DNA from: Clytia hemisphaerica
Taxonomy: Eukaryota; Cnidaria; Hydrozoa; Leptothecata; Clytiidae
Assembly: GCA_902728285.1 (NCBI GenBank)
Contig: CACVBU010001253.1
Coordinates: forward strand, 443,293-507,292
DNA length: 64,000 nucleotides
Reading direction: 5' to 3'
Part shown: positions 1-19,315 of the stretch, one piece after another
Layout: every line of letters begins with the position of its first letter
How positions within the stretch are numbered: the stretch's first letter is position 1
Position numbers and translations under genes: made by a program
Notes under the pieces: generated by a model
What the model saw: only the letters and a program-made list of their open reading frames with translations
The model's database searches: none
Told to the model about the DNA's origin: nothing

Positions 1-99
1 TGTAAGGATTGTAAAGAAAATTACTGACAATTACATCTTGAATAACCACCTATTAACTTCTTGTTCATTATAAGAGTTCGTTGCAACAAAAAACAAGGA

Positions 100-242: not shown

Positions 243-1376
243 ATGGCAGACTGTAGCTGCGGCAAGATGTCTGGAACTAGAAGAAATTTTGTTTTTGTAA
301 TTTTTGCTGTAGTTTTATTCAATTTATGTCTTGTTAATGGCAAATCTATACCCAAGAAAGGTAATTTTTATTTTTCATACTACTTCAAATAGCAACGGCA
401 GTCAGGCACATCCTGGCAAATGAACGGGGTGAGCATTTGCATGGGGTATTCGTCACCCAGTGTAAATGAGATAGGACGTCTCAGGCTAAAAGCGTGAAAA
501 TGAATAAAAATGAACTTCAAACTGAAAATGGGAAAAAAGAAAGAAAACTGGGAACTTTATTTTTTTGTTAAAAGTTTCTTCAATCTTCGAAGAAAAAATT
601 GACCCATGGAAAAAAAATTTCATCTATGCAGTTCTTCAAAATGAAGAAAAATATTTCAAACCCGGTTCAATTGCGTGGGGTATTCAGCACTATTACATCA
701 CTTTTGTTTTCGACCCCTTGCATTTGCCACCAATCACAAGTGAAAAATACCCCGTTCATTTGCCAGGATGTGCCTGACTGAACGGGTTAAAAAATGTAGT
801 GAAAGTTGTCCTTTTTTATGAACAAAAACACACACTACACACTGAGAGAAAACAATCCAAACAAATTACCAAAATTACACTGCCCTAAATGGTTCATTCT
901 GGAATTGATGTAAAGCTTACTTCAGACTATTAGGGGCCGTCGACATTCGACTTTCGAATTTTTAACGGCATTTGGCCGTTAAGGAGGGGGAGGGGGTCGA
1001 CCATGTGCCGTTAAGGGAAGGTCGAAAATCTCTTTAGGGGTCAACTCACCACATATCAATTCTTTTCTCCAGAAAATATAGATTTTTGAGACGTTTATTC
1101 CATACAAATGTTACTTTCCATATTTATATATTTCATATATTATTCCATATTTCCTCGGTTACTCCGAGGTCACTAGTTTGTTGGAACTATCTTCGTTGTC
1201 TCCCCTCCGTTTTCTCATTTACTCCCTCTTACTAGTATATGGATTTAGATATATCATTTTATAACAGAGTATCATCACAACTTGTGCTAGTTTTTAAATG
1301 TAAATTCCACTTTGTTCATATTTTACATCCATTTGTACATTATATTTAGGATGAGAGTATCGGTAAATATATTCTA

Positions 1377-4400: not shown

Positions 4401-7400
4401 AAGGCTGGGACAATCTATTTAAAAGATATGGACAAAAAAAGGCACTTTTTTTGGGTGATAATTAAGATTTTACTTAGAAACTTGAATTCTCTTACCCCCG
4501 TCTCGGGCCCCCTTGATATGAGCAAAGGAACCATGTTGGCCACCCCTACTGAAAATTTCAGATCAAAACAAACAAGGAATTAATTCCTGTAACTCGAAGA
4601 AAATTGGAAAAAGCTGGTTTTTGACTGTTTCTGATCCTAAAGTGCTATTTTTTGGTAAAAGCTATGCAATTTATGTTTGAATTTCTAGAAAGCTTACCCA
4701 TTCATTGTTAGTACATTTTTTATTTGAAAGTAATCTCTTCATGGAATAAAAAGATATAGTCAAATCTTGTAGGGTCATTTTTCAAAAATTTTTTGCCAAA
4801 TTCGATTTTCGCATTTCGCCATTTTACCCTACGCAAACGCACATGACCTAAAACCTGAACAAAGTCCCCCTGGAAAAGTTAACTGTAAAATCTCTATAAT
4901 AATAATAATGATAATAATAATCCAATTTTTCAAAATCAGAAAATCAGGAAATCGCTGAATTTTTGCTACCTGGGAGAAATGTGGTAATGTCAGCATATAG
5001 TCAACTCAGGTAATCGTTACGCACCCCTAATTCTTACGCACTTTTTGAATCGCCAATATTTCATGATATACTTGGTTTCTAACCTTGAAGTAAAATTATT
5101 ATGAAAGCAAAACATTTCCCTACCTTTTGTACCAATAATTTGTTTCTGTTTTGACTTCCCGCTCGCCAAAATTTGCTTCAAAGAAGATGCGCTGTGGCGA
5201 TACCATTTTGATATTTAAGAAGGATGAAGTAACTTTTGAACTGAGGAGATCTGGGTACAAGATAGTGCGCAAATGGTTGTTGCTAAGAAGCAGCCTATTC
5301 AAGTACGTTTTATCCCACCAAATGTTTTTTCTTGAATGTTTCGTGATAAATAACAAGAGCCGCAGATCAATTAGGTGCGTAAAATTTACGAGGGTAGCCC
5401 AATCATTACGCACTTTTCAAGTTGCCATTCAAGCTTAAAGTCGCCAATACAATGTTTTCAAGTAATATCTTTTCAACACAGTTTAATAGCCAATTGGTTT
5501 TCTTAACAGTTTTCCGATCCACGGAATCGATAGGGAAAAATGCGGAATAATTACGGATTTGGCACCTAATCATTACGCAGTTGAAAAATGTTGTTTAATG
5601 AATTTTGGCTTATCGCAGATAGCTTATATGAATGAAAAAGGTTGGAAAATACTTTAGCTATCTAAAAAGAGCTCAACCAGCCTTTAATCGCAAGAATTAG
5701 CATGCACGGAATCGATAGGGAAAAATGCGGAATAATTGCAGATTTGGCACCTAATCATTACGCAGTTGAAAAATGTTGTTTAATAAATTTTGGCTTATCG
5801 AAGATAGCTTATATGAATGAAAAAGGTTGGAAAATGCTTTAGCTATCTAAAAAGGGCTCAACTAGCCTTTAATCCCAAGAATTAGCCGCAAAATCAACCT
5901 TTCTCTGAAAAGTGCGTAACGATTACCTGAGTTGACTATACCTTGTCTACTTCCTTCATAACAACTAGTCTGCAAAGCAGTTAAAGTAATTTTTATTATA
6001 ACTTTCTCATAAGGTTTTATGTATGAACATTTAAAAGACCAGAAAGTTCATATGACAAAATTAGAAAAGGTATCTCAGCATTACACAAAGTATATATGCA
6101 GCCCTCGAATTTCAGGTCGGCATTCGGCAGTGCCGACCTAAAAGCCGACCAAAGAGTGCGTATGGTCGGCAGTTCATTGCCGACCATATTCATTGATTCT
6201 CTCGGCAGCCGACCATAAGTTATCTTTTAGGTCAGCAAAGCCGACCTGTAACTGTAAAATGAAAGTCTCTAATAAGAACCATATCGCACTCAAATAAAAA
6301 AACAAACATTGCCGTAGCCTTTAAACAACTTTGCCGACCTAAAATATAGCTCAGATCGGCATTGCCGACCTAAAAACAAGCTTAGGTCGGCAAAATTTTG
6401 CCGACATTTGGACGGCACTTACGTGCCGACTTAATTTTACTTGAATTTCGAGGGCTGTATATGGTAGGAATGAATAGAGTGAATACACCTTATCCTCGCA
6501 ATGTTGCAGCTCAACACTTTTGCAGAGGTAATAAACAAGTCCTAAAATGATGGATTTCAAGCATAAAGCCTTACAAAACAGCTAAAGTATTGTTGCTAAG
6601 ATTGTTGCTTGTTGTTTCCTCAGAGATGATGCCATCAAAATTGTTGTTTTTATTTTTTGCATAGCTTCTGAAAGCTTGTTAAATTTTGTGTTTTCATTTA
6701 GATAAAAATAAGCTCTTATAGGCTCTTTTGCTAGCCTTGTTACCATTTTTGACTCCATAATTCACCACTAATTTATCATGGAATCAAAATGGCATAGTGG
6801 CTAGCAAATAAAGGTTGCAACCCCAGACTGATTACCAGATTCCACTCCCGATTCCACAACCATGACCTGGAAAAGTTTGTACAGGCTACTGTTTGGCAAT
6901 AATGTCCTAAAATGTACATCTTAATAAACACCATTTTAAAAATTCTATAATTTGTATTATAAATATAATTTGTTAATTGGATTCATGCAATGATTTTAAC
7001 TTCAATTTGTAGGAGAGGAAGAGCAACGTTACATACTCTCAAAAGATCCAACATGTGCCAGAGATGTAGAAAATCATTGCTCAAAAGTTCCAAGAAAGGA
7101 TAATAATTTTGCTGTCTTTGTTTGTATGCAAGAAGCTTTATATGTAAGTTTAACTGATTTATATTTTTAAATTGTTTTCTTTTTCTTGGTGTTTTCCATA
7201 TGAGTTATTACAATGTCACCTCCCCACATAAATGAGGATTAGATTTTGGCATAACCCTGCTTACAAAGATTTTGGCCATTCTTGCAAAAATAAACATAGA
7301 TAAGCACAAATTATTGCTTAACTTTTGCTTTCATATAATTGCATCATTTATTTTTAGAGAGATGATGACGATATCAGTGAAGAATGCCACCAGGTGCAGA

Positions 7401-10400
7401 TATTTTTTTAGTCTTTTTGCCTGATTTATATAATCATTTAAAATTGAAATTGAAAATCTTTTACCCCGTTTTATCATACATTTTACTTGAAGCGAAGTTC
7501 AAACTCAAACAAAACATTTTAAAAACATATAAATTAGAAATTGAATAAATTACAGCAATCTAAAAGTAAGAAAATATATTTCAATCTTAATGAACTATTT
7601 TTTATGTTTTCCAGACTATGTGGCACTACAAATTTAACTTGACTTCTGATATGAAATTCGATGAAGCAGCAACACAAATTTGTGAAACTTCAATTCCCAA
7701 AGTAAGTAGAGAGGAGGTGTGAAATTATTTTACTAATTTCAGGCCATATTTTAGAAAAGCAGGGCAGCATCAGTTGGTGGCTAAAAAAGGGCACTTTGTC
7801 TTGTTTTTTTTTTCGCTAAAAAGGCTACTTTTACCAAATTGTTAGTGATTTCAGGAGGGGCAGCGTCCGGGTATGAAAAATAGCCTGAATTTTATACCTA
7901 ATTTTGATGAAACGATGGCTTGCCTCTTACCTCAATTATAGTTTGAACAAAAATTGATCGCCTTATTACACTTTATATAACTACTCAAGTTATTAACTCT
8001 AATCTGTTACCCTCGCTCTAATTACAACCGTTTAACAAAATTTGATCGGTGGTAATTTTTTGAAAACCCTGCCTTTTCGCGTTAATAAATTGTCACATTC
8101 ATTATGTTATAAAGTACTTTATGATTTTTATTTTGTTTATGATTCTGTAGGTTAAAGAATGTGCCAATCCAAAATTACGAGACACTAAAGGATTTTTGAT
8201 GAATTGTATGGTTGAAAATCGACATGAAGTGGAAGATACAAAATGTAAAGGATTCTTAAACAAAATGGCTGCCATTATTTTCTCTGATTATCGTCTCATC
8301 AAAGGGTTCTATGATGATTGTCATAAAGATATCACAACAATGAAATGTGCAATAATCACAAGACCAGATGATGATGAAGCTGTATGTCTTTTTGTTTATT
8401 GTTATTTTTTTTCAAATCTAAACGTCATTATTTTGTTCTTTGTTTTTGTTCTTTTACAAACTCTTGCTCCTTTTTTCTTGGGAGTATAACTTACTTAGGT
8501 ATTTATTAAGACATTGAAGGTTTTGACAATTTGAAATAAAAGCTTTTGTTTACTATGAAACAAAGCTTTTCTCTTATAGCTAAAAGAATAAATTAATCTT
8601 TAATCACATCCTAGTAGATTTTTACAAAGTTTAAAAATTTTCTTTCCCCCAATAGATGAAAAGTAAAATGAAATATCTGTTGAAAACGTTAAATCTTGAT
8701 AATTCACAAAAATAAATATCTTTGTTCTTTGTCATTTAGACCGAATCACATGAGCAATCAGAAGTTGTCAGCTGCTTAGAATCACGATTTGAAGAAATCA
8801 AAAATGAAAAATGTCAACAAGCCGTTTTGAAAGTCTCTGAATTGCAATCAGATGATTACCATATGGACAGACCATTATTCTATGCTTGTCAAAATGCTCG
8901 TGAAATTTTCTGTAAAACTGTTCAATCAGGTGAAGGTCGCATCTATGAATGTCTTTTGAAACATTCGCAAGAGGAAAGTATGGACCATGCATGTGCAATT
9001 AAATTACTTGCTCGCTCTAAGATGATGCAAAAAGATATTAAGGTATTACATTTTGTCTTGTTTTTTACTCACATTGAGTTGTTTACCCTTTTTGGGATAC
9101 GAGAGAATTCTTGGGTTATTTAAAAGATGCCTTTTAATGCCTCCTGTTTCTTTTGGAACAAATTTTAGCTTCAAATAAATGATGATATCATGTGCTTTTC
9201 TTCTTGATTTAGATCAATTACCCATTATGGAAAGCATGCGAAGCAGACTATAAGAAATATGATTGCGAGAAAGAGAGAAAAGAAATCAAGAACCCGTCAG
9301 AGCACGGAGAAGGTTCTTTATTGTTGATGTGTTTGACCAAACATCAAGCTGAAGGCAAGTATTTTCATAGACTTCATATCAACACTCATCACTTAACTGA
9401 AGAATCATTTAAGTTATTTCTAAAGAGCATTGCAAAAAATTTTAAAAGATATTTAAAAAAAATTCACTTTCTTCTTTTTTTTAACATGCAAGCAATATCT
9501 CAATCAACACTTCATATTTACAAGAAGTGTGATTGCTTGTCTTTCTTTTTCTTATCTTGTCTTGATGTAAAATAAACATGATGCAGTCACTTAGGTTAGT
9601 TTTTAATGGAAAGCATGACTATAAGAAGTACTAGATTTTTTTATTGCATTACTTTTGAATTCAAATTTCCAGGAAGTCCTATTGAACCGGACTGTGCAAA
9701 TGAGATGCGATCTTTTGCCATGTTAATCTTTGAACAATATCAAGTCAGTCCTCTAGTCGTTGGTAAATGTGATAAAGAAATTCATGAGCATTGCAAGACA
9801 CTTATTGGTAAAGAAAAGGATGACGGAGGAATGATGGACTGTTTGATGGGTCTTGCTGCTAAAGAGAATAGTGGAATGAGTGAACAGTGTTTTACAGCTG
9901 TAAGCACACAAGTTCCATACAATCAAAATAAATCAGCTCTAGTCTGAATCAGAGTTTACAAAGAAGGATTGACCTCAATTGTCTGGGTCATTGCACTTAT
10001 TTTCTTATCGACACAAAATTTCAATGTCTTTCCTTCTTTGTGAAGTCGACTAAAACTCTTTGTGGTGTTAAATGTATTAGAACTAAAGCCATTCTCTCTC
10101 ATAATCTTAATATTCTGACATTTGATGGCATTCCTTTCTGGTTAACTCTTAAAAGTTGATCTTTTTACCCCCAAGATAACCTGTTCTAAATTTTCATGTT
10201 GTATACACTTTTTAGATTACAGAAGTCTTGAAGGAGACAGGTGCAGGTGATAATTACAAAGTTGATCGTGGATTAGAAGTGGCTTGCCAATCCACCATTG
10301 CTCAGTTATGTGAGGGAAAACAAGACTCAATGTAAGCTTTTTCCTTTGGAAGCTGGAATTTGAGTAATCTTTGGACTTTGTTGTTTCTTTGTCTATGAAA

Positions 10401-13400
10401 AAAACTGATTTCAAAAAAGAATGTTAAAGTTGGGCCATATCGAAACTCTCTGAAGACATTAACAAAGTCCAAAGATTAATCAAATTTTAGAAATGCATTT
10501 TTAATGTACAATTGTTAATTCATATAGCAGTTTCAAAATGTATATCAATTACTCAGTGCTAAATATGTTTTACCAAAATGAAGACACTTTTATTTAGCTC
10601 ACAAAGGGAGTCTTTAATATGATCTATTATATATTTCTCTAACCTCTCTTACTTTTAGGATTCTTTCTTGTCTGATGGAAAATACACACAACCCCAAGAT
10701 GGACCCTTCTTGTCGTGAACAAGTTTTCCATCTTCAATTCTTTTTGGCTAGAGACTTTAGGTATTATGAATATTTTTTATCATATAATGTTTTTTTACTA
10801 CAATGCCAACTGACACCTGGGTAAAATGGGGTAAGATGAAAACTATGAGTTTTGTTGTATGATAAAGTACATCGTATAACATGTTGTCAAATATTTTAAG
10901 AGCATTTTCCCTTGATAAGCTGGTCATGGGATTTTATCAATTTATCCATTAAAGCAAATCATTTAACATTACTTTCTTAAAAAAATGATAGTGAAAGTGG
11001 CACTAATTATTTCACCCCTTTATTTTAAGACTGGACTCAGCCTTGTACAGAGATTGTAAAGATGATGCCAAGACCATCTGCCATGCCACCGATTGGGGAA
11101 ATGAAAAGGAATCCACCATGCCCGATAACTTTGTCATTTCATGTCTATACAGAAATGCTATTTTACATGACAATCCAGCACATAAGGTGACTAACTAAAC
11201 CATATTTTAATGACTTTTCCATGACATGTCACAAAATGCACAACCAAGTTCCATCTTATCAGTGTGACGGATTTCGAACTCGACCTTGTTCCTAAATTAT
11301 ATTTTGTTATCTCAAAATTTGAAGATTTTCTTAAAATAAAATAAAACCGCTTCCCTGTCTGCCTCGTAATACTTGGACAGTGACATAGGTATCTAGAGAG
11401 TCAGAATACGATAAATTACTCGATAAAGAGAAGTCGAGATGGTTTTGTTTATCAAAAAGTCGATGTCAATGTCTTTGGTGTATGACTTTTAAAGAGTTTT
11501 TTTTCCATGGCAATAGCACACTTGATCATCAGATACCTATTAATGTTTCGCAATTATAACAAACACAAGCACACATTTTACTAACTCACACATATGAAAC
11601 CAATATATTATAGTACAGTATGACTAATTTTGACTGAGAAACACTCAAACCTTTCACCATTCTACCGGGTGATCCAGAAGAAAGTATAAAGGTTCGATGG
11701 TTAACTGTGTCCAAAATAATGTGAATTTTTACTATATTCTTTTAATTGTCAAGAGGAATGGCAAACTTAAAATTTGGCATATAGCTTTTCAAATTTGGTT
11801 TAGTGGCTCTCAAGTTATAAGCTTTTGAAGTCAAAATTCACTTTTGAAAAAGTCCAAAAACACGTCAAAAATGGGGTATAAAATTAAGCATTTTTTAACA
11901 TTTTTCACTAAAGTTTTTTTGAAAATCGCTCTGAAACTTTAGGATAATTGGTAAAAATCAGCTGAGATGATTAATTGAATTGTAAAAGTCATTAGAATAG
12001 TGAAAATATGAGGTTTTCATTTAGAATTGCGTTAATTTGATAAGATAAAAATTGATTGATGTGTTTTTTGGACTTTTTCTAACTGCAAATTTTGACTTCA
12101 AAAGCTTATAACGTGAGAACCACTGAACCAAATTTACAAAGTTATATACCAAATTTTCAGTTTGCCTTTCCTCTTTGCAATGACAAAAGAATTCATTAAA
12201 AGTTTACATTATTTTGGACACAGTTAGCTATCAAACCCTTATAGTTTTTCTGTGTCACCCGGCATCACTAACAGACATACACACACAAGCAACTGATATA
12301 ATGGGTTTCAAAATTTATGATTGGTTTAAATATTGGTTTTAATTTGAAAACGTCAATCATTTCCATCGCCATAAATTTTGAACCCATATGTATCTAGGTA
12401 CATTGACATCACTTATAACACAACAAGCATTCATTTCTTTTCATAAATTAGTAAGATAAAGCAACAAAATAAAAGTAAAATATATAAAAAGTAACTAAAA
12501 TAAATACAAGTAAATATCCATCCCCTACCTGAGCCTATCTCAACTGAAACTTTGCCTCTTTCTACGTTTAGACCGTTTTTGACAAGAATAGGATACCGAA
12601 GGTACAGAATACTACTTACCCCTTTTATACATTTTAAAACCTCACCCCTTTCGTAAATTTTCTGATTTTCTGAAATATCGGTCGGGTTATTGCGTGAAAC
12701 TTGAGGAAAATTTGCGTGAATGCATGAATTTCGAAAAAAAATTGTGTGATTACGTGGAAAACCATGGTGGTTGGTAAATCTTCGTTAAAATATCAAAGGG
12801 ACTTTCAGAAAAGTGAACTGAAGACAAAAACACAAGGGAGTCTCCAAAAATGACCTCCTCGACACGGAGAGGGCAAAAAAAAAATCTGGAATAGCCCAAT
12901 GTACAATAAAGTTAAATAAAGATAACCATTTTAGTAAACATTCATTAATACACATAATTATATTAATAAATAATTTTTTTTCATCTAACTTTCTGTTGTA
13001 ACAGGTATCTGATGTTTGTGCCAGCCATGTCAAACGTGTCATGCACCAAAGGGCTACTGACATTCGACTTATGCCTGAAATTGAGAAACCCTGTATGGCT
13101 GACCTTGGCAAATTTTGTACTGATCGCCATGAAGAAGGGGAGGTATAGTAACATAATTTCCTATCTTTTTCATACTTTATATTAGACAGCGGATAAATGT
13201 TTCGCACACATTAGGAGAGCCATGTTAGAGAGAGCGCAAAGTGTGAAATTGATGCCTGAGATTGAGAAGCCGTGCATGGAAGATCTGGGCAAACTATGTA
13301 TGGACAGCAAGGAGAAAGATGAGGTAGAATTTTGATTGTCTTCGTTTCAGTTTTGAAAAGAAGACCAGGCTTGATCTTGGCCATAATCTAAGAAAAAGTT

Positions 13401-16400
13401 TCCTTTTTTAAGCTAATTTTAGAAGCCATTATTTGAATAATTTAAGAATGTTATGATATGACATCAGTCAAAAAAGAGCATGCACATCATTTTGTGAAGG
13501 GTGTGAAATTTTTTTATTTTGAATAATTTCTTGATGATCTTTAATGTTTTTTCCATCCAGGAAATTGATTGTCTACAAGAGCATCTTGAGGAATTGCAAA
13601 ACAAATGTCAAGAAGCTATCAAAACTTTCACCAAGATGGAAGCCAAGGTAAATAATGAACGCTGAAATTCACTATGAGCCGTGCTCTATCGTCAATATTT
13701 GCCAGTCCTTTTTATTCTTTTCTAATCATTTCTTCTAATCATCTCATTTCTTTTCATAATTTTCTTGCTACCACCCAACCAATAATGTATCATATTTTTA
13801 AAAGTTAATGTTTTTTTCATATGGTTTTCTTTTACAGGACTTTGATTTGGACAAACATCTTGTCGACAAATGTGGTGCTATGGTGACCAAATTCTGTCCA
13901 GTATGTTTTATTATAGTTTTATTCTCCTTCTTCCTTACTCTAAAGGTGATTTTCTAAATTCTTTGGAAGTCATTTTTCACTATTTTAAACAGCTATTAAG
14001 CCTGAGTTCTTCTTCTTGAATGGGTCTGAACATGAGTTTTACAACAAATAGTATAATTTCATAAATTTCACTTTATTTCTGTTTTCAAGCATATCGTCGT
14101 ATCGTAGCTCTAAAGTATATATTTTCACACCTCATTTTTCGACCCACTTTACTTGAAAAAATAGCACCGTCCCAAGCCTTATTTGTCAAAAAAAAATTCA
14201 TTTTTTCAAGACGTTATTTTTTTTCATCAATTGGATCTTTCTAACTATAGTTATGTAAGTCTTGGTTACTTGGTTACCTAATTTTCAACCCATTTCTTTT
14301 TGTTCTTCTTTACAGAACGAATTACAAGATAAAGATGGAGAACAAATCCTACCATGTTTGATATCACACAAGAATGATATTGAAATGAACGCTGAATGTA
14401 CCACAGCTCTTGAACATTGGCAATTGGTAAGGAGATGAAGAAAAATATCGTTGCGATTCTTCCATTATCATAATTTTCATACTTGAGGGATCCCCAGAGG
14501 GCGCTAGGTTTGATAGCTGACGGGTATTTTACGTCCAATCTTCGACCCTCAGAGTCAAATTTTTTCTATTTTCCAAGACTCGTGGGGGGGGGGACTGAAA
14601 TGAAATCTTATTCCGTTACTGGTCCCCGAAGATACTTATGCCTTTCAGTAGCCGAGGTACCCTTTTCCCCTCCTGGAAATTAACTGTTGGCTATTGACAG
14701 ATAATTGTTTGGAAATTGTTTCACTCCTTTTCAAAACAGCAGGAATAAAAATTTCCCTGTCAATGACAAGCATATCCCATCTGATATCACAAGTGATTTG
14801 TCTATAAGAGCTTATCCAGCCATTTGGTTTTGTTGTAAACATTGACGCTTGTAATAATTCCTTAATTTTCTTCAGATCGAAATGAAAGATATCGAGTTCA
14901 GTCCTCGATTGAAGGACGCTTGCATGGATGATGCAATGAAACTTTGTAAAGATGCTAAATCTAAGTAAGGGGAATTTATTTCTATCATTAAATTTCCTTT
15001 TCAAGTTTCAGACCTACCGGTATAGGAACGTAAATAGACCGGGTTAAACACCAAAAGAATTCGACGATACTGATGTTTGACGTTTATAATTGCTAATTTA
15101 AAGACGTTTGATACTATGTGATATTTAAGGCTCAAAATTGAGGTTCTAAGTTCAAGATCCAAGATGGGCAAACAGGACAGTTTCGAATCCAAATAGAATA
15201 AAATAACAATTCCATCGCGACATGTCTTAATAACAAAATCGAGTGCGACTTTTTATAGACAAATTAACCATGACTTATTGTCTCTTTTCTTTAAACTAGA
15301 TATCAAGCTGTACGTTGTTTATCACAGAAGATGGTCGAAGATCACACCAAAGTCTCTTCGCAGTGTAAATTGCAAATCCGAAAAGAATTGACCATCCAGG
15401 TACTAATAATAATAATGACATTAACTTGTAGGGAATCATCAAAATTTACCATCAGGTTACTTCAAAGAACGAATTTTACAACCACTATATAGGTGGAATT
15501 CTAACTGAAAATAATCTATCCCTGGGGAATTGCAAACGCATTTAGGATTAAACATCTTTGAAATTTTGGATCTTCACACGATTCTTGGAAATAGAATTCC
15601 GGTTGTTTTACCCCTATGGAGTTCCAAAACCTTTCCAACCTTGAACCTTTGGCGCTGAAACGGAGTATACGGTTTTGTTTTGAAAAAAAACAGTTATAAT
15701 TACTTCAATCTGGTCTAACTTGCTTTTGACGTTGCATTGTTCTAATAATTTTTTCGTTTTTTTTTCAGAGTGAAAACATTAAATTGAATCCAGAGATGTT
15801 CCACGCTTGTCAAGATGACATCAAAGAACATTGTCACGGTATCCCACCAGGTGGTGCTCAGGTCAGTTGTCAATCATTTTGAATTTGAATATTGTACCTC
15901 AGAAACCTTCATTTTTGCAAAGGGACCTCCCATTTTTTAATTTATTGGACCTCTCATGTTCAGTATTTATAGTGTGCAGACAGGTCTCGTACCTATTGCA
16001 AAGGACTTTTTCACAACTTTCCTAACATCACCTTATTTAGGGACTCTAACTTTATTTTTATCTCGTCAAAATTTGTTTTCCTAAACGATAACAATGATGT
16101 AGTGTAATGTGATGTAAAGATATTATAAACGAAGCCGTCTTTTGCTTTCTTCGCAGATCGAAGAATGTTTGAGACGTAACTTCCCCAAATTGAAATCAGC
16201 CGCTTGCAAGAAAGCACTTTTCAAACAAGAAGAAATGGAATCAAAAGACAACGGCATGGATTACCGTCTCATGCAAATCTGTAAACCGATGATCAAGAAG
16301 TACTGTCAACCTCTCGTTTCCACGGGTGATACGACCGCCATTATGGAATGTTTACGTTCTTTCACGCATGACACTGACATGTCTAAAGAATGTAAAGCGA

Positions 16401-19315
16401 TCGTTTTCGAACGCCAAAAGGAACAAGCGGAATCGTTCGCTCTCGATCCTGAACTTTCGAGCTTCTGCGATTCTGATGTTAAGAGACATTGCAGTAGAGA
16501 AATGAAAGAAGCTCAAAAATCGTATGACCAAGGACACACTGACGAAGGCCTTGTCTTTGGATGTTTGGTCGATGTGTTGATCGGTAAAAAGAATGTAAGT
16601 GTGACTTTTATGCTTTGTTACTGTTAAATAACGTAATTTCAAATCCTGTGTTTTGACAATACCGTTAGGCTTCGGTTCTTAAACTGAAGATTTTGTCGCC
16701 ACGTTTTTTTCTTTAAGATACGAGTTCCGCGCTAAATTGTACTTAACCTGTTTGTGACGGTTTCAACCCACTCTTCTCACGATTATCCAGGTGTCATTAA
16801 ATTATCGATTTTAACGGGACGCTTTTAATCGAAAATCTATTTTCTCGCATAATTCAACCCCAGTCAGGACCTCAGAACAACGTCTATCTGACGTCCATAA
16901 TGTCTTTTTTACGTTAAATGTACATTGAAACAACGTTATATATTTTCCTCTATTCTACTAAGTAAGTAAGTAAGTAATGAATTTATTTGTCTTAATAAGC
17001 GAGACGAGCGACCACACTCATAGACATAAAGCTAAACTAAGGAGGTGGCCGCACGCTACTGTTACAAGAAAAAATAGTTTCTAAGATCTTACTAGGATAC
17101 ATTGAAAATAAATTTTTTATAAAATAGCAATAAAGAAATGAAAAATTCAGAACGAAACTCGAAAATCGTAAAAATTAAGTATATGAAGAGAGGAAATATA
17201 ATCTTGTTAAATCTTTGAGACGATCCAATGTTAGTGTAGAGATGTCGTCATAGGCTAGGTATTTTTGTATTTCGTTCCAAATCGAAATAGATTGGTATAA
17301 AATTGAGTAATTACCAATTTTATACCTATCTATTTCGATTTGGAACGAAATACAAAAATACCTAGCCTATGACGACATCTCTACACTAACATTGGATCGT
17401 CTACTATCCAGAGACTTCAACCAAGTTGTGAACAATACGTCAGACGTCGTGAACACGAGGCCGCCTTGGAATTAGAGTTGAACCCACAATTCTTGGAGCA
17501 CTGTAGAGACGAGGTATTCAGGCTATGTGGAAAGACACCACCTGAAGAGGTCATCGATTGCATGAAAATGAACATTCCTAAAATCAAAGGAACACAATGT
17601 GTCGAGGTAAGATTATACTGTTATTTTGTCATTCATATTCTAAAAAGATAGGTTTTCAGAAAAATCTCAAGGAAACCAGGGAAACTCGGGGAATTCGATC
17701 TTGCAAATTACTTATAACAGAACCTCTTGTTTTTTATGGTCTGGAGGATATTATTTACTAACCATAATGGCCCCTCAGACCGCTAGTTTTAAGTTAGTTC
17801 AACTATATATTGTTGTTTAACGAAATACATATTCGACAGCTGGTTATTACCTTTTTAAAATCTTTCACATGTTCACTCTTTTCTTACGTTACAGGAAGTA
17901 CGTAAGCTGATTGCGGAAGGTATTGAAGACGTACACGTTGATCCGTTCTTAGAAGAGACGTGCGCACGTGATATTAACAGATATTGTAAAGACCTGCCAA
18001 AGAAGAGTGGAAACGGTGAGTTTTCCTTTTCGATAGTTTTTCACCATTCAGTATTGAACGCGTCATTATTTATGTCTACTACTTTTGTACCGTCGTTTTG
18101 GGGTAAGATTCCTTTTCCCGGACTTAACTGACTTTAACTGGATATTTTCGCTTTCTTCGGTATGTCCTTCATACCATTGGAAAGGTTTTTTCTAAAGGTT
18201 CGGAATAAGAAAAATGGTCAACTCTCCATTTTTCAACTAGCCGGAGCGCTGGTCTTTTTTCGCTAGAAAGTGGAATCTTAAATTGACCGACTGCATATTT
18301 AGCAATATCTCGCTAATTGGAATAAAGAATCTAGTATTATTTTACTAAGAAAAGATTAGTAAAATTCATCCTTTCTTGTGCATGTAATTATTTTAAAATG
18401 TTGTATTTTTTGTTTTTCTGTAGTGGTATACTGTTTGATAGACGTACACAAAGCGAAAAACCTCCACTTGGATCCAGATTGTGACAACTTCATCGCGAAA
18501 CGAATCCAACTCTACAAAGATGCTAATGTGGTAAGTAGAGTTGAAAAAAATTCAGATGCTTCTTTTTTTTACGTACCTTTCCTTGAAAGGGGTCGGCAAA
18601 TTGCGTTTATTTCGATTTACTGCCCCAGTATTATGTCAAGATTACTTACATAGATATAGAGCCCGAAGGGCTATATGGCATGCTTTGGCTGAAAAGTGTG
18701 CCCAGGTTAGGTTGGAAATCTTACCTAAGTCACGCGACATTACAATAGAATTTCAGCGCTTGACCAATGAGAAGCTTTGTGGGTTTTCGAAAACAAAAGC
18801 AGCAATATTTTTTGCGACATTCACTTTTTTTTTGCTTGGAAGAGCTTAAAGCACGCCATCTAGCCCTTCGGACTTTATAAATCTATGGTTACTTAGCGGC
18901 GTTTTTTGAAGTCTATAGGTCTTCAGGCTTTGGACTATAGATTTGTCCTTTTGACTTGAAACGTGGAAAAGTGGTCAGAGTTTACAAGGTAGACTCTGCG
19001 TAAAATGTCCGAAGTTGTTGCATTGATTTTTCAGTAGACACAAAATTTGGATGCCATTTCTTGACTCTATTCCTTCGAGGTGTTTTAGCCTATACAACAA
19101 CGTTGCAAGATTGAAGTTGCAAAAGTTTTAAATTATATGATTTTTTCTTTTAGAATTTCGACAGCGTATCGTCAGTGATGGTCGCCATCGCTGAATCACC
19201 ACATCGCAACTACATCTACATGACCATCATGATCTTCTTAGCGGTACTTTTCTTGGGCGGTACCTTGTTCGGGCGGGTAACCAAACGGGCGTTAGCTGAA
19301 CAGAAAAACCGTTAG
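243..19315 (+). CDS. GLG1: Golgi apparatus protein 1 (GLG1/MG-160/ESL-1), complete, 23 exons per transcript
   Basis: Type I membrane glycoprotein of the Golgi with many ~60-residue cysteine-rich repeats; relatives bind FGFs and E-selectin and act in secretory trafficking. Exons: 243-360, 7013-7143, 7358-7393, 7615-7701, 8151-8381, 8740-9042, 9213-9354, 9673-9899, 10216-10331, 10659-10760, 11030-11186, 13005-13142 or 13186-13323, 13561-13647, 13838-13900, 14316-14426, 14876-14964, 15300-15399, 15769-15861, 16157-16594, 17412-17606, 17895-18015, 18424-18530, 19154-19315. All phases join and give about 1117 residues, near the vertebrate length of about 1180. A hydrophobic signal segment (FVFVIFAVVLFNLCLVNG) is followed by repeats of the form CxxDIxxFC...CL...C. 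The last exon encodes one membrane segment and the short tail GRVTKRALAEQKNR, which matches the vertebrate GRITKRVTRELKDR tail as I recall it. ATG 243 is the first in frame; ATG 267 is an alternative. Confidence 0.93.
399..780. mobile_element. Non-autonomous inverted-repeat element, 5-bp target duplication
   Basis: About 31 bases at the left end (CAGTCAGGCACATCC...) are repeated perfectly in inverse at the right end (...GGATGTGCCTGACTG). The flanks are AACGG at 394-398 and AACGG at 781-785, a clean 5-bp target duplication. No transposase is encoded. It lies in GLG1 intron 1. Confidence 0.85.
933..1895. mobile_element. PIF/Harbinger-like non-autonomous element, TTA target duplication
   Basis: The ends are inverted copies beginning GGGGCCGTCGACATTCG, about 40 bases each, flanked by TTA (930-932 and 1896-1898). 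A 3-bp TTA duplication with GGG-type ends fits the PIF/Harbinger group. G-rich subterminal tracts (GGAGGGGGAGGGGGTC) follow on both sides. A (TCTA)n microsatellite sits inside at about 1377-1419. There is no transposase ORF. Confidence 0.8.
3361..3680 (-). repeat. Dispersed repeat with a tRNA-like segment (SINE-like)
   Basis: On the minus strand, 3361-3432 contains a pol III A-box (TGGCGCAGTGG) and B-box (GGTTCAAATCC) at tRNA spacing. The acceptor ends do not pair, so it is not a working tRNA. The adjoining 3436-3680 body has a second, inverted copy at 29528-29747 sharing the CAGGACCTGCAGG core and the CTTCTTCATAAAAGCGAAAGA block. The short ORFs here belong to the repeat, not to a gene. Confidence 0.6.
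4095..4240. promoter_or_regulatory. Promoter-like block in GLG1 intron 1 (YY1-, IRF- and CCAAT-type motifs)
   Basis: GCCGCCATCTTG (YY1-type) near 4100 is followed by CCAATCAGA at 4172, TTTCACTTTCGCTTTC at 4189-4204 (ISRE/IRF-type) and another CCAAT at 4211. A similar set of motifs occurs at 59467-59650. It may be an internal promoter, or part of a repeat that carries promoter-like sequence. Confidence 0.3.
4998..5938. mobile_element. TA-target inverted-repeat element with internal 185-bp tandem duplication
   Basis: The ends are inverted copies starting TAGTCAACTCAGGTAATCG and flanked by TA. Inside, a ~185-base unit starting ACGGAATCGATAGGG is present twice in tandem (about 5521-5705 and 5706-5888). 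The terminal motif (TAATCRTTACGCAC) recurs several times in the interior. The ORFs at 5120-5438 lie inside the element and look like chance. It is in GLG1 intron 1. Confidence 0.75.
6099..6457. mobile_element. 359-bp inverted-repeat element filled with GGTCGGCA motifs
   Basis: The ends are CAGCCCTCGAATTTCA and its inverse, flanked by TATATG on each side (6093-6098 and 6458-6463). The interior holds more than ten copies of GGTCGGCA or its complement TGCCGACC in both orientations. It lies in GLG1 intron 1. Confidence 0.75.
11665..12262. mobile_element. 600-bp fold-back element, mariner-like ends
   Basis: The whole stretch is a diverged palindrome. It begins CCGGGTGATCCAGAA and ends with the inverse of CCGGGTGACACAGAA. 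The block TAACTGTGTCCAAAATAATG is mirrored near the other end. The left flank is TA. It lies in GLG1 intron 11, upstream of the alternative exon pair. Confidence 0.7.
13005..13142 (+). CDS. GLG1: GLG1 exon 12, version A
   Basis: This exon is 138 bases (46 codons), phase 0 at both ends, with acceptor TGTAACAG and donor GAG/GTATAG. It encodes the last cysteine of one GLG1 repeat and the first two cysteines of the next, including LMPEIEKPCMADLGKFC. The following exon (13561) supplies the DCL motif that completes the repeat. By my count, 25 of 46 residues match version B just downstream. See the finding on mutually exclusive splicing. Confidence 0.9.
13186..13323 (+). CDS. GLG1: GLG1 exon 12, version B (tandem duplicate)
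   Basis: This exon is also exactly 138 bases, phase 0, with acceptor TATATTAG and donor GAG/GTAGAA. It encodes TADKCFAHIRRAM and then LMPEIEKPCMEDLGKLC, the same repeat segment as version A. Only 43 bases (13143-13185) separate the two, and that spacer opens with an in-frame stop (GTA TAG). Including both exons would give two CxxxxxxC pairs in a row without the CL motif between them, breaking the repeat pattern, so one or the other is expected per transcript. Confidence 0.87.
16957..17218 (-). repeat. Possible 3' end of a non-LTR retroelement with (ACTT)n tail
   Basis: AAGT is repeated at 16959-16976. Read on the minus strand this gives AATAAATTCATTACTTACTT, which resembles a non-LTR element ending in a short tandem tail. 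No reverse-transcriptase ORF is visible, so it would be a heavily 5'-truncated copy. This is inferred from end structure only. Confidence 0.35.
17219..17401. repeat. Near-perfect 87-bp hairpin ending 10 bases before a GLG1 splice acceptor
   Basis: Bases 17219-17305 are mirrored at 17315-17401 with one visible mismatch and a 9-base loop. The right arm ends just before TACTATCCAG, the acceptor of the 17412-17606 exon, so it overlaps the normal branch-point and pyrimidine-tract zone. See findings. Confidence 0.85.
18642..18895. mobile_element. Short inverted-repeat element (MITE) in the last GLG1 intron region
   Basis: About 45 bases at the left (core CCGAAGGGCTATATGGCATG) match the inverse of the right end (core CCGAAGGGCTAGATGGCGTG). 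The element is about 250 bp with no coding capacity. Confidence 0.65.

Follow-up and report, generated by a model that had tools for sequence, protein, structure and literature searches.

Steric interference between splice sites is a well-known basis of mutually exclusive exon use, with alpha-tropomyosin as one example. The exon pairs of both alpha-tropomyosin and OGDH consist of homologous neighbouring exons. The distance between a donor and a branch point is subject to a steric limit of about 50 nt, as applied in two studies (PMC5740500, PMC7969005), and the intron between OGDH exons 4a and 4b places donor and branch point closer than this (PMC7969005). A human survey reports 57 clusters with potential steric interference, and notes that similarity between neighbouring exons is in many cases not accompanied by mutual exclusivity (PMC5740500). 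In Dscam/srp-type clusters, too, a single exon is chosen from a tandem array of duplicates (PMC6071210).

GLG1 is an old animal Golgi protein that has been connected in vertebrates with the maturation of TGF-beta and with the binding of FGF and E-selectin (PMC10202991). The main text of PMC5740500, the human survey, does not mention GLG1, and a study in which glg1 is differentially expressed does not, in its accessible text, tie it to a splice form (PMC7844397). The preliminary description of the locus knew of no exon switch in GLG1; no report of mutually exclusive exons in GLG1 was found among the matches listed, within the accessible text of open-licence papers on GLG1 splicing and isoforms and on cnidarian exclusive exons.

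Here we describe two neighbouring exons, A and B, in the GLG1 gene of the hydrozoan Clytia hemisphaerica. We put the probability that they are tandem duplicates, now mutually exclusive by a steric block, at roughly 0.8. Compared with OGDH and alpha-tropomyosin, the GLG1 spacer totals just 43 nt and the candidate branch point lies 9 nt from the donor; use of the two exons in RNA is a prediction. Compared with Dscam/srp-type clusters, GLG1 has just two such exons and competing pairings are unsupported. To our knowledge, no exclusive exons of the steric kind are known from this gene or this lineage, nor any with so extreme a spacer.

The GLG1 gene and exons A and B

In the window, the whole stretch of 64,000 nt that was analysed, a GLG1 gene occupies the + strand between about 243, where its first exon was placed by eye, and 19315. 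GLG1 repeats (PF00839) are confined to one locus of the 417 Mb genome (951 contigs): a whole-genome profile search gave 14 matches, 13 above the cut-off, and all 14 lie within this gene. The protein model has 993 residues, starts at exon 8151 without the N-terminus, and contains 14 stretches of tandem cysteine-rich PF00839 repeats (476.4 bits). Human and other vertebrate GLG1 (MG-160, ESL-1, CFR-1) belong to the same repeat family; a putative C-terminal membrane anchor, as in those proteins, and a hydrophobic, signal-peptide-like N-terminus were both judged here by eye. Among solved structures, the best match to the A-form stretch was a tropomyosin (E 0.19), which is not a relative. The features are as follows.

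243..360, + strand: probable first coding exon of GLG1 with a signal-peptide-like start; ATG and GT donor located, N-terminus by eye
7013..7143, + strand: probable N-terminal GLG1 exon with open frame and splice ends, before the modelled part
11030..11186, + strand: exon upstream of the A/B pair in the gene model; the frame continues at phase 0
11187..13004, + strand: intron upstream of exon A in the gene model, 1818 nt, with a repeat hairpin inside 11681-12247
13005..13142, + strand: exon A, 138 nt, 46 codons, phase 0-0, three repeat cysteines; PF00839 score 37.3 bits
13143..13185, + strand: spacer between the donor of A and the acceptor of B, 43 nt, 3 G of 43
13146..13148, + strand: TAG stop in the frame of A, met if the spacer is retained
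13146..13152, + strand: candidate branch-point motif TAGTAAC; its A at 13151 is spacer base 9, 35 nt before exon B
13186..13323, + strand: exon B, 138 nt, 46 codons, phase 0-0, three repeat cysteines; PF00839 score 27.9 bits
13561..13647, + strand: exon downstream of the pair in the gene model, carrying the fourth cysteine of the repeat (CL)

Exons A and B are each preceded by AG and followed by GT, and their translations align ungapped with 25/46 identical residues, all three cysteines included. The preliminary description had seen two phase-0 exons of 138 bases with this identity, a 43-base spacer opening with an in-frame stop, and outer junctions at 11186 and 13561. Its coordinates, phases and identity all proved correct; the TAG is the second codon of the spacer in the frame of A, and both outer sites are right in the gene model. 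Equal length and phase, similarity, GT-AG ends and position as neighbouring internal exons are the marks of a mutually exclusive cluster, and A and B show each of them.

The similarity of the two exons is specific to them. A six-frame search of the whole genome with exon A, at E up to 1, returned two matches, A itself (1.6e-26) and B (7.1e-12). The GLG1 introns from 8151 on were scanned for same-phase open segments with AG and GT ends and a length within 30 nt of the exon; among 53 candidates, some of them overlapping, only B resembled the neighbouring exon, reaching 0.586 of the self score against -0.02 for the next candidate. The BLOSUM62 score of A against B is 146, while the rest of the modelled protein gives at most 67 with A and at most 69 with B, which points to a local duplication and not to two ordinary repeats. 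Human GLG1 presumably has a single segment at the position of the pair, and the motif HQRA.D, which we take to be common to exon A and human GLG1, is absent from B; this comparison would suggest that A is the older-looking copy. No relative carrying the pair was confirmed in collections of viral contigs (200 pattern stretches) and genome contigs (80); as these cover viruses and prokaryotes, their negative says little. A duplication of the acceptor region together with the exon was also considered: the spacer resembles the end of the intron upstream of A (11/500 shuffles as good). The idea was dropped because the spacer scores 32 there and 33, 32, 31 and 31 against other GLG1 intron ends.

Several further features were seen along the gene. 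A further probable N-terminal exon was glimpsed by eye near 7610-7700, and between the first and second probable exons a 185-nt unit occurs in two tandem copies (5520-5886, 95% alike). The junction at 9355-9676 can be read with a GC donor (AAG|GCAAGT, 9354) and an acceptor at 9673, or with a GT donor (9358) and an acceptor at 9677; the frame is kept in both. Within 11681-12247, in the intron before exon A, lies an imperfect inverted repeat whose arms, 124 and 63 nt long, are 81% and 84% complementary. Genome-wide, a 171-nt piece of this repeat gave at least 44 matches, including two in the same intron, so the repeat is probably a hairpin-forming mobile-element family. A near-perfect hairpin at 17218-17402 (88-nt arms, 99% complementary, 9 nt between) ends 9 nt before GLG1 exon 17412, and may be a recent insertion at the acceptor of that exon.

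Elsewhere in the genome, a mitochondrial contig of 14,551 nt (G000:C900; L004, L005) has a hydrozoan-like gene order and ends inside cox1. Genes named by eye from translations run cox2, atp6, cox3, nad2, nad5, nad6, nad3, nad4L, nad1, nad4, cob, cox1, an order that presumably fits a hydroidolinan hydrozoan. Physalia mitochondrial contigs are reported to carry nad2-nad5 and nad6-nad3-nad4L-nad1-nad4 (PMC4655093). The contig reads by code 4, judged by eye: at positions expected to be conserved, AGR codons correspond to Arg and ATA to Ile. A blastn search of its cox1 end against 9900-14551 gave no second cox1 piece. No tRNA was detected in the first 10,000 bases by ARAGORN, run with its settings for bacteria.

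Codon change and splice sites of the two copies

The two exons appear to have diverged strongly at synonymous sites. By NG86, dN between A and B is 0.41 and dS is not computable, which is read as saturation and is the only hint at the age of the duplication. Third codon positions are identical in 18/46 codons and second positions in 33/46, and 13 of the 25 common residues are encoded by different codons. Judged from this pattern in the sequence, both copies look to be under selection.

When the remaining splice sites of the gene (17 donors, 17 acceptors) are scored leave-one-out, the donors and acceptors of A and B lie within their range. An apparent weakness of these sites relative to those of other exons was rejected on this ground, as the scored sites had trained the matrix. 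The donor of A scores 5.32 and that of B 3.0. Among GTs inside introns (n = 367), 5.5% score as high as the donor of A and 18.8% as high as that of B, which itself lies above only 1/17 other GLG1 donors, so the donor of B alone is not distinctive. The acceptors are matched by 6.3% (A) and 4.4% (B) of intronic AGs (n = 363).

The lower donor score of B, together with its lower PF00839 score, is what would be expected if one copy, more likely B, were rarely used or decaying and GLG1 came almost wholly from the other copy. This reading is unlikely, however. Twenty-five residues have been kept despite synonymous change beyond computing, and all three cysteines are in place; the frame of B is open and its splice ends are intact, while random 46-codon stretches of local intron composition are open in 464/20000 cases.

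The cysteine cycle and the 43-nt spacer

The cysteines of the modelled GLG1 protein follow a four-step cycle of spacings, 24, 7, x, y, with 26 in place of 24 once and 8 in place of 7 twice, x being 10-23 and y 11-18. Exons A and B each encode three of the four cysteines of one repeat, and the fourth lies in the next exon. Models with A only or B only have 59 cysteines and an intact cycle. A model with both has 62 cysteines and the spacing ...7,12,24,7..., three cysteines being gained without a fourth, and a model that skips both has 56 and the spacing ...7,20,17,11,24...; the cycle is broken in each. The fixed cysteine order on which the preliminary description relied takes the form of a four-step cycle that is kept by exactly one of A and B. 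A secreted repeat protein that gains an odd number of cysteines is expected to misfold. Inclusion and skipping of both exons preserve the reading frame, 138 nt being a multiple of three, so frameshift decay does not enforce exclusivity. Nor was a U12-type donor found: each of the three donors concerned (upstream exon, A, B) agrees with the U12 consensus at no more than 5/8 positions.

The spacer is an outlier in length. The 18 introns of the A-form GLG1 model measure 170-1818 nt, one of them, of 418 nt, spanning B, and the intron from B to 13561 has 237 nt. Estimates for 40 myosin introns (129-4723 nt) and 69 dynein introns (94-8639 nt) were derived from the distances separating adjacent profile matches (85 and 101 in all), leaving aside neighbours with a profile gap outside -12..12 (myosin) or -30..12 (dynein) positions; these estimates may miss a few very short introns, since one whose length is a multiple of three could lie unnoticed within a single match. 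Across the 127 other introns (18 measured, 109 estimated) no length falls below 94 nt. The motif TAGTAAC, the best branch-point candidate, was called from the consensus, and its function is putative. The steric argument applies to any branch point within the spacer, since in only 43 nt each would fall below the limit of about 50 nt from the donor of A.

Were A and B both included, with the spacer removed as an ultra-short intron, the repeat would be enlarged; in favour of such joint inclusion are the GT and AG ends and the 138+138 nt, which are in frame. Splicing is reported for human introns of only 43, 49 and 56 nt (PMC4463651), so the length of the spacer alone does not forbid A-B joining. 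The human 43- and 49-nt introns are G-rich, with a G-rich enhancer (PMC4463651), a make-up that the spacer lacks. Of the ultra-short human introns with splicing evidence described there, 12/15 are G-rich and 3/15 are not, and the G-poor spacer is therefore only a weak argument against joining. Weighed with the broken cysteine cycle and with the lengths of the other introns, joint inclusion appears very unlikely. Less probable still is a true exclusivity that depends on rival pairings of intronic RNA (docking/selector) in place of a steric block: such pairings are known in other tandem exon arrays (PMC6071210), yet duplexes between the spacer and flanking introns were not above shuffles preserving single-base content only, which were as strong or stronger in 200/200, 171/200, 160/200 and 39/60 cases.

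The proposed switch and its meaning

The steric block thus remains the preferred reading, and from their sequence A and B are very likely mutually exclusive exons of the steric kind. An ancestral 138-nt exon that supplied one GLG1 repeat with three of its four cysteines would have been duplicated in tandem, and its copies would now serve as alternatives. Splicing from the donor at 11186 would lead to one of the two exons, A or B, and from there on to 13561. Joining of A to B would be blocked because U1 at the donor of A and U2 at the branch point of B do not fit the 43-nt spacer together, the likely branch point adjoining that donor. If the spacer were retained, A would read into the TAG. The outcome would be two full-length GLG1 proteins that are alike outside one cysteine-rich repeat, within which up to 21 residues would differ. 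The earlier proposal that one exon or the other is used is thereby upheld on grounds of anatomy, namely the cysteine cycle, a spacer that is an outlier below the limit of about 50 nt, and two selected-looking copies. It is predicted that both exons are used in RNA and that A is not joined to B; the steric block, the branch point and any control by tissue or stage are likewise predictions.

A wider reading, which we hold tentatively and consider somewhat doubtful, is a regulated GLG1 switch in hydrozoans or cnidarians more widely. The closeness of donor and branch point would force an either/or choice, and the forms would differ through one repeat in partner binding, for example of the FGF/TGF-beta family, by cell type or life stage. 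The A/B pair offers a compact natural test of the minimum distance between donor and branch point. If GLG1 does exist in two natural forms that differ in one repeat, this would suggest that the repeat is important for the choice of partners.
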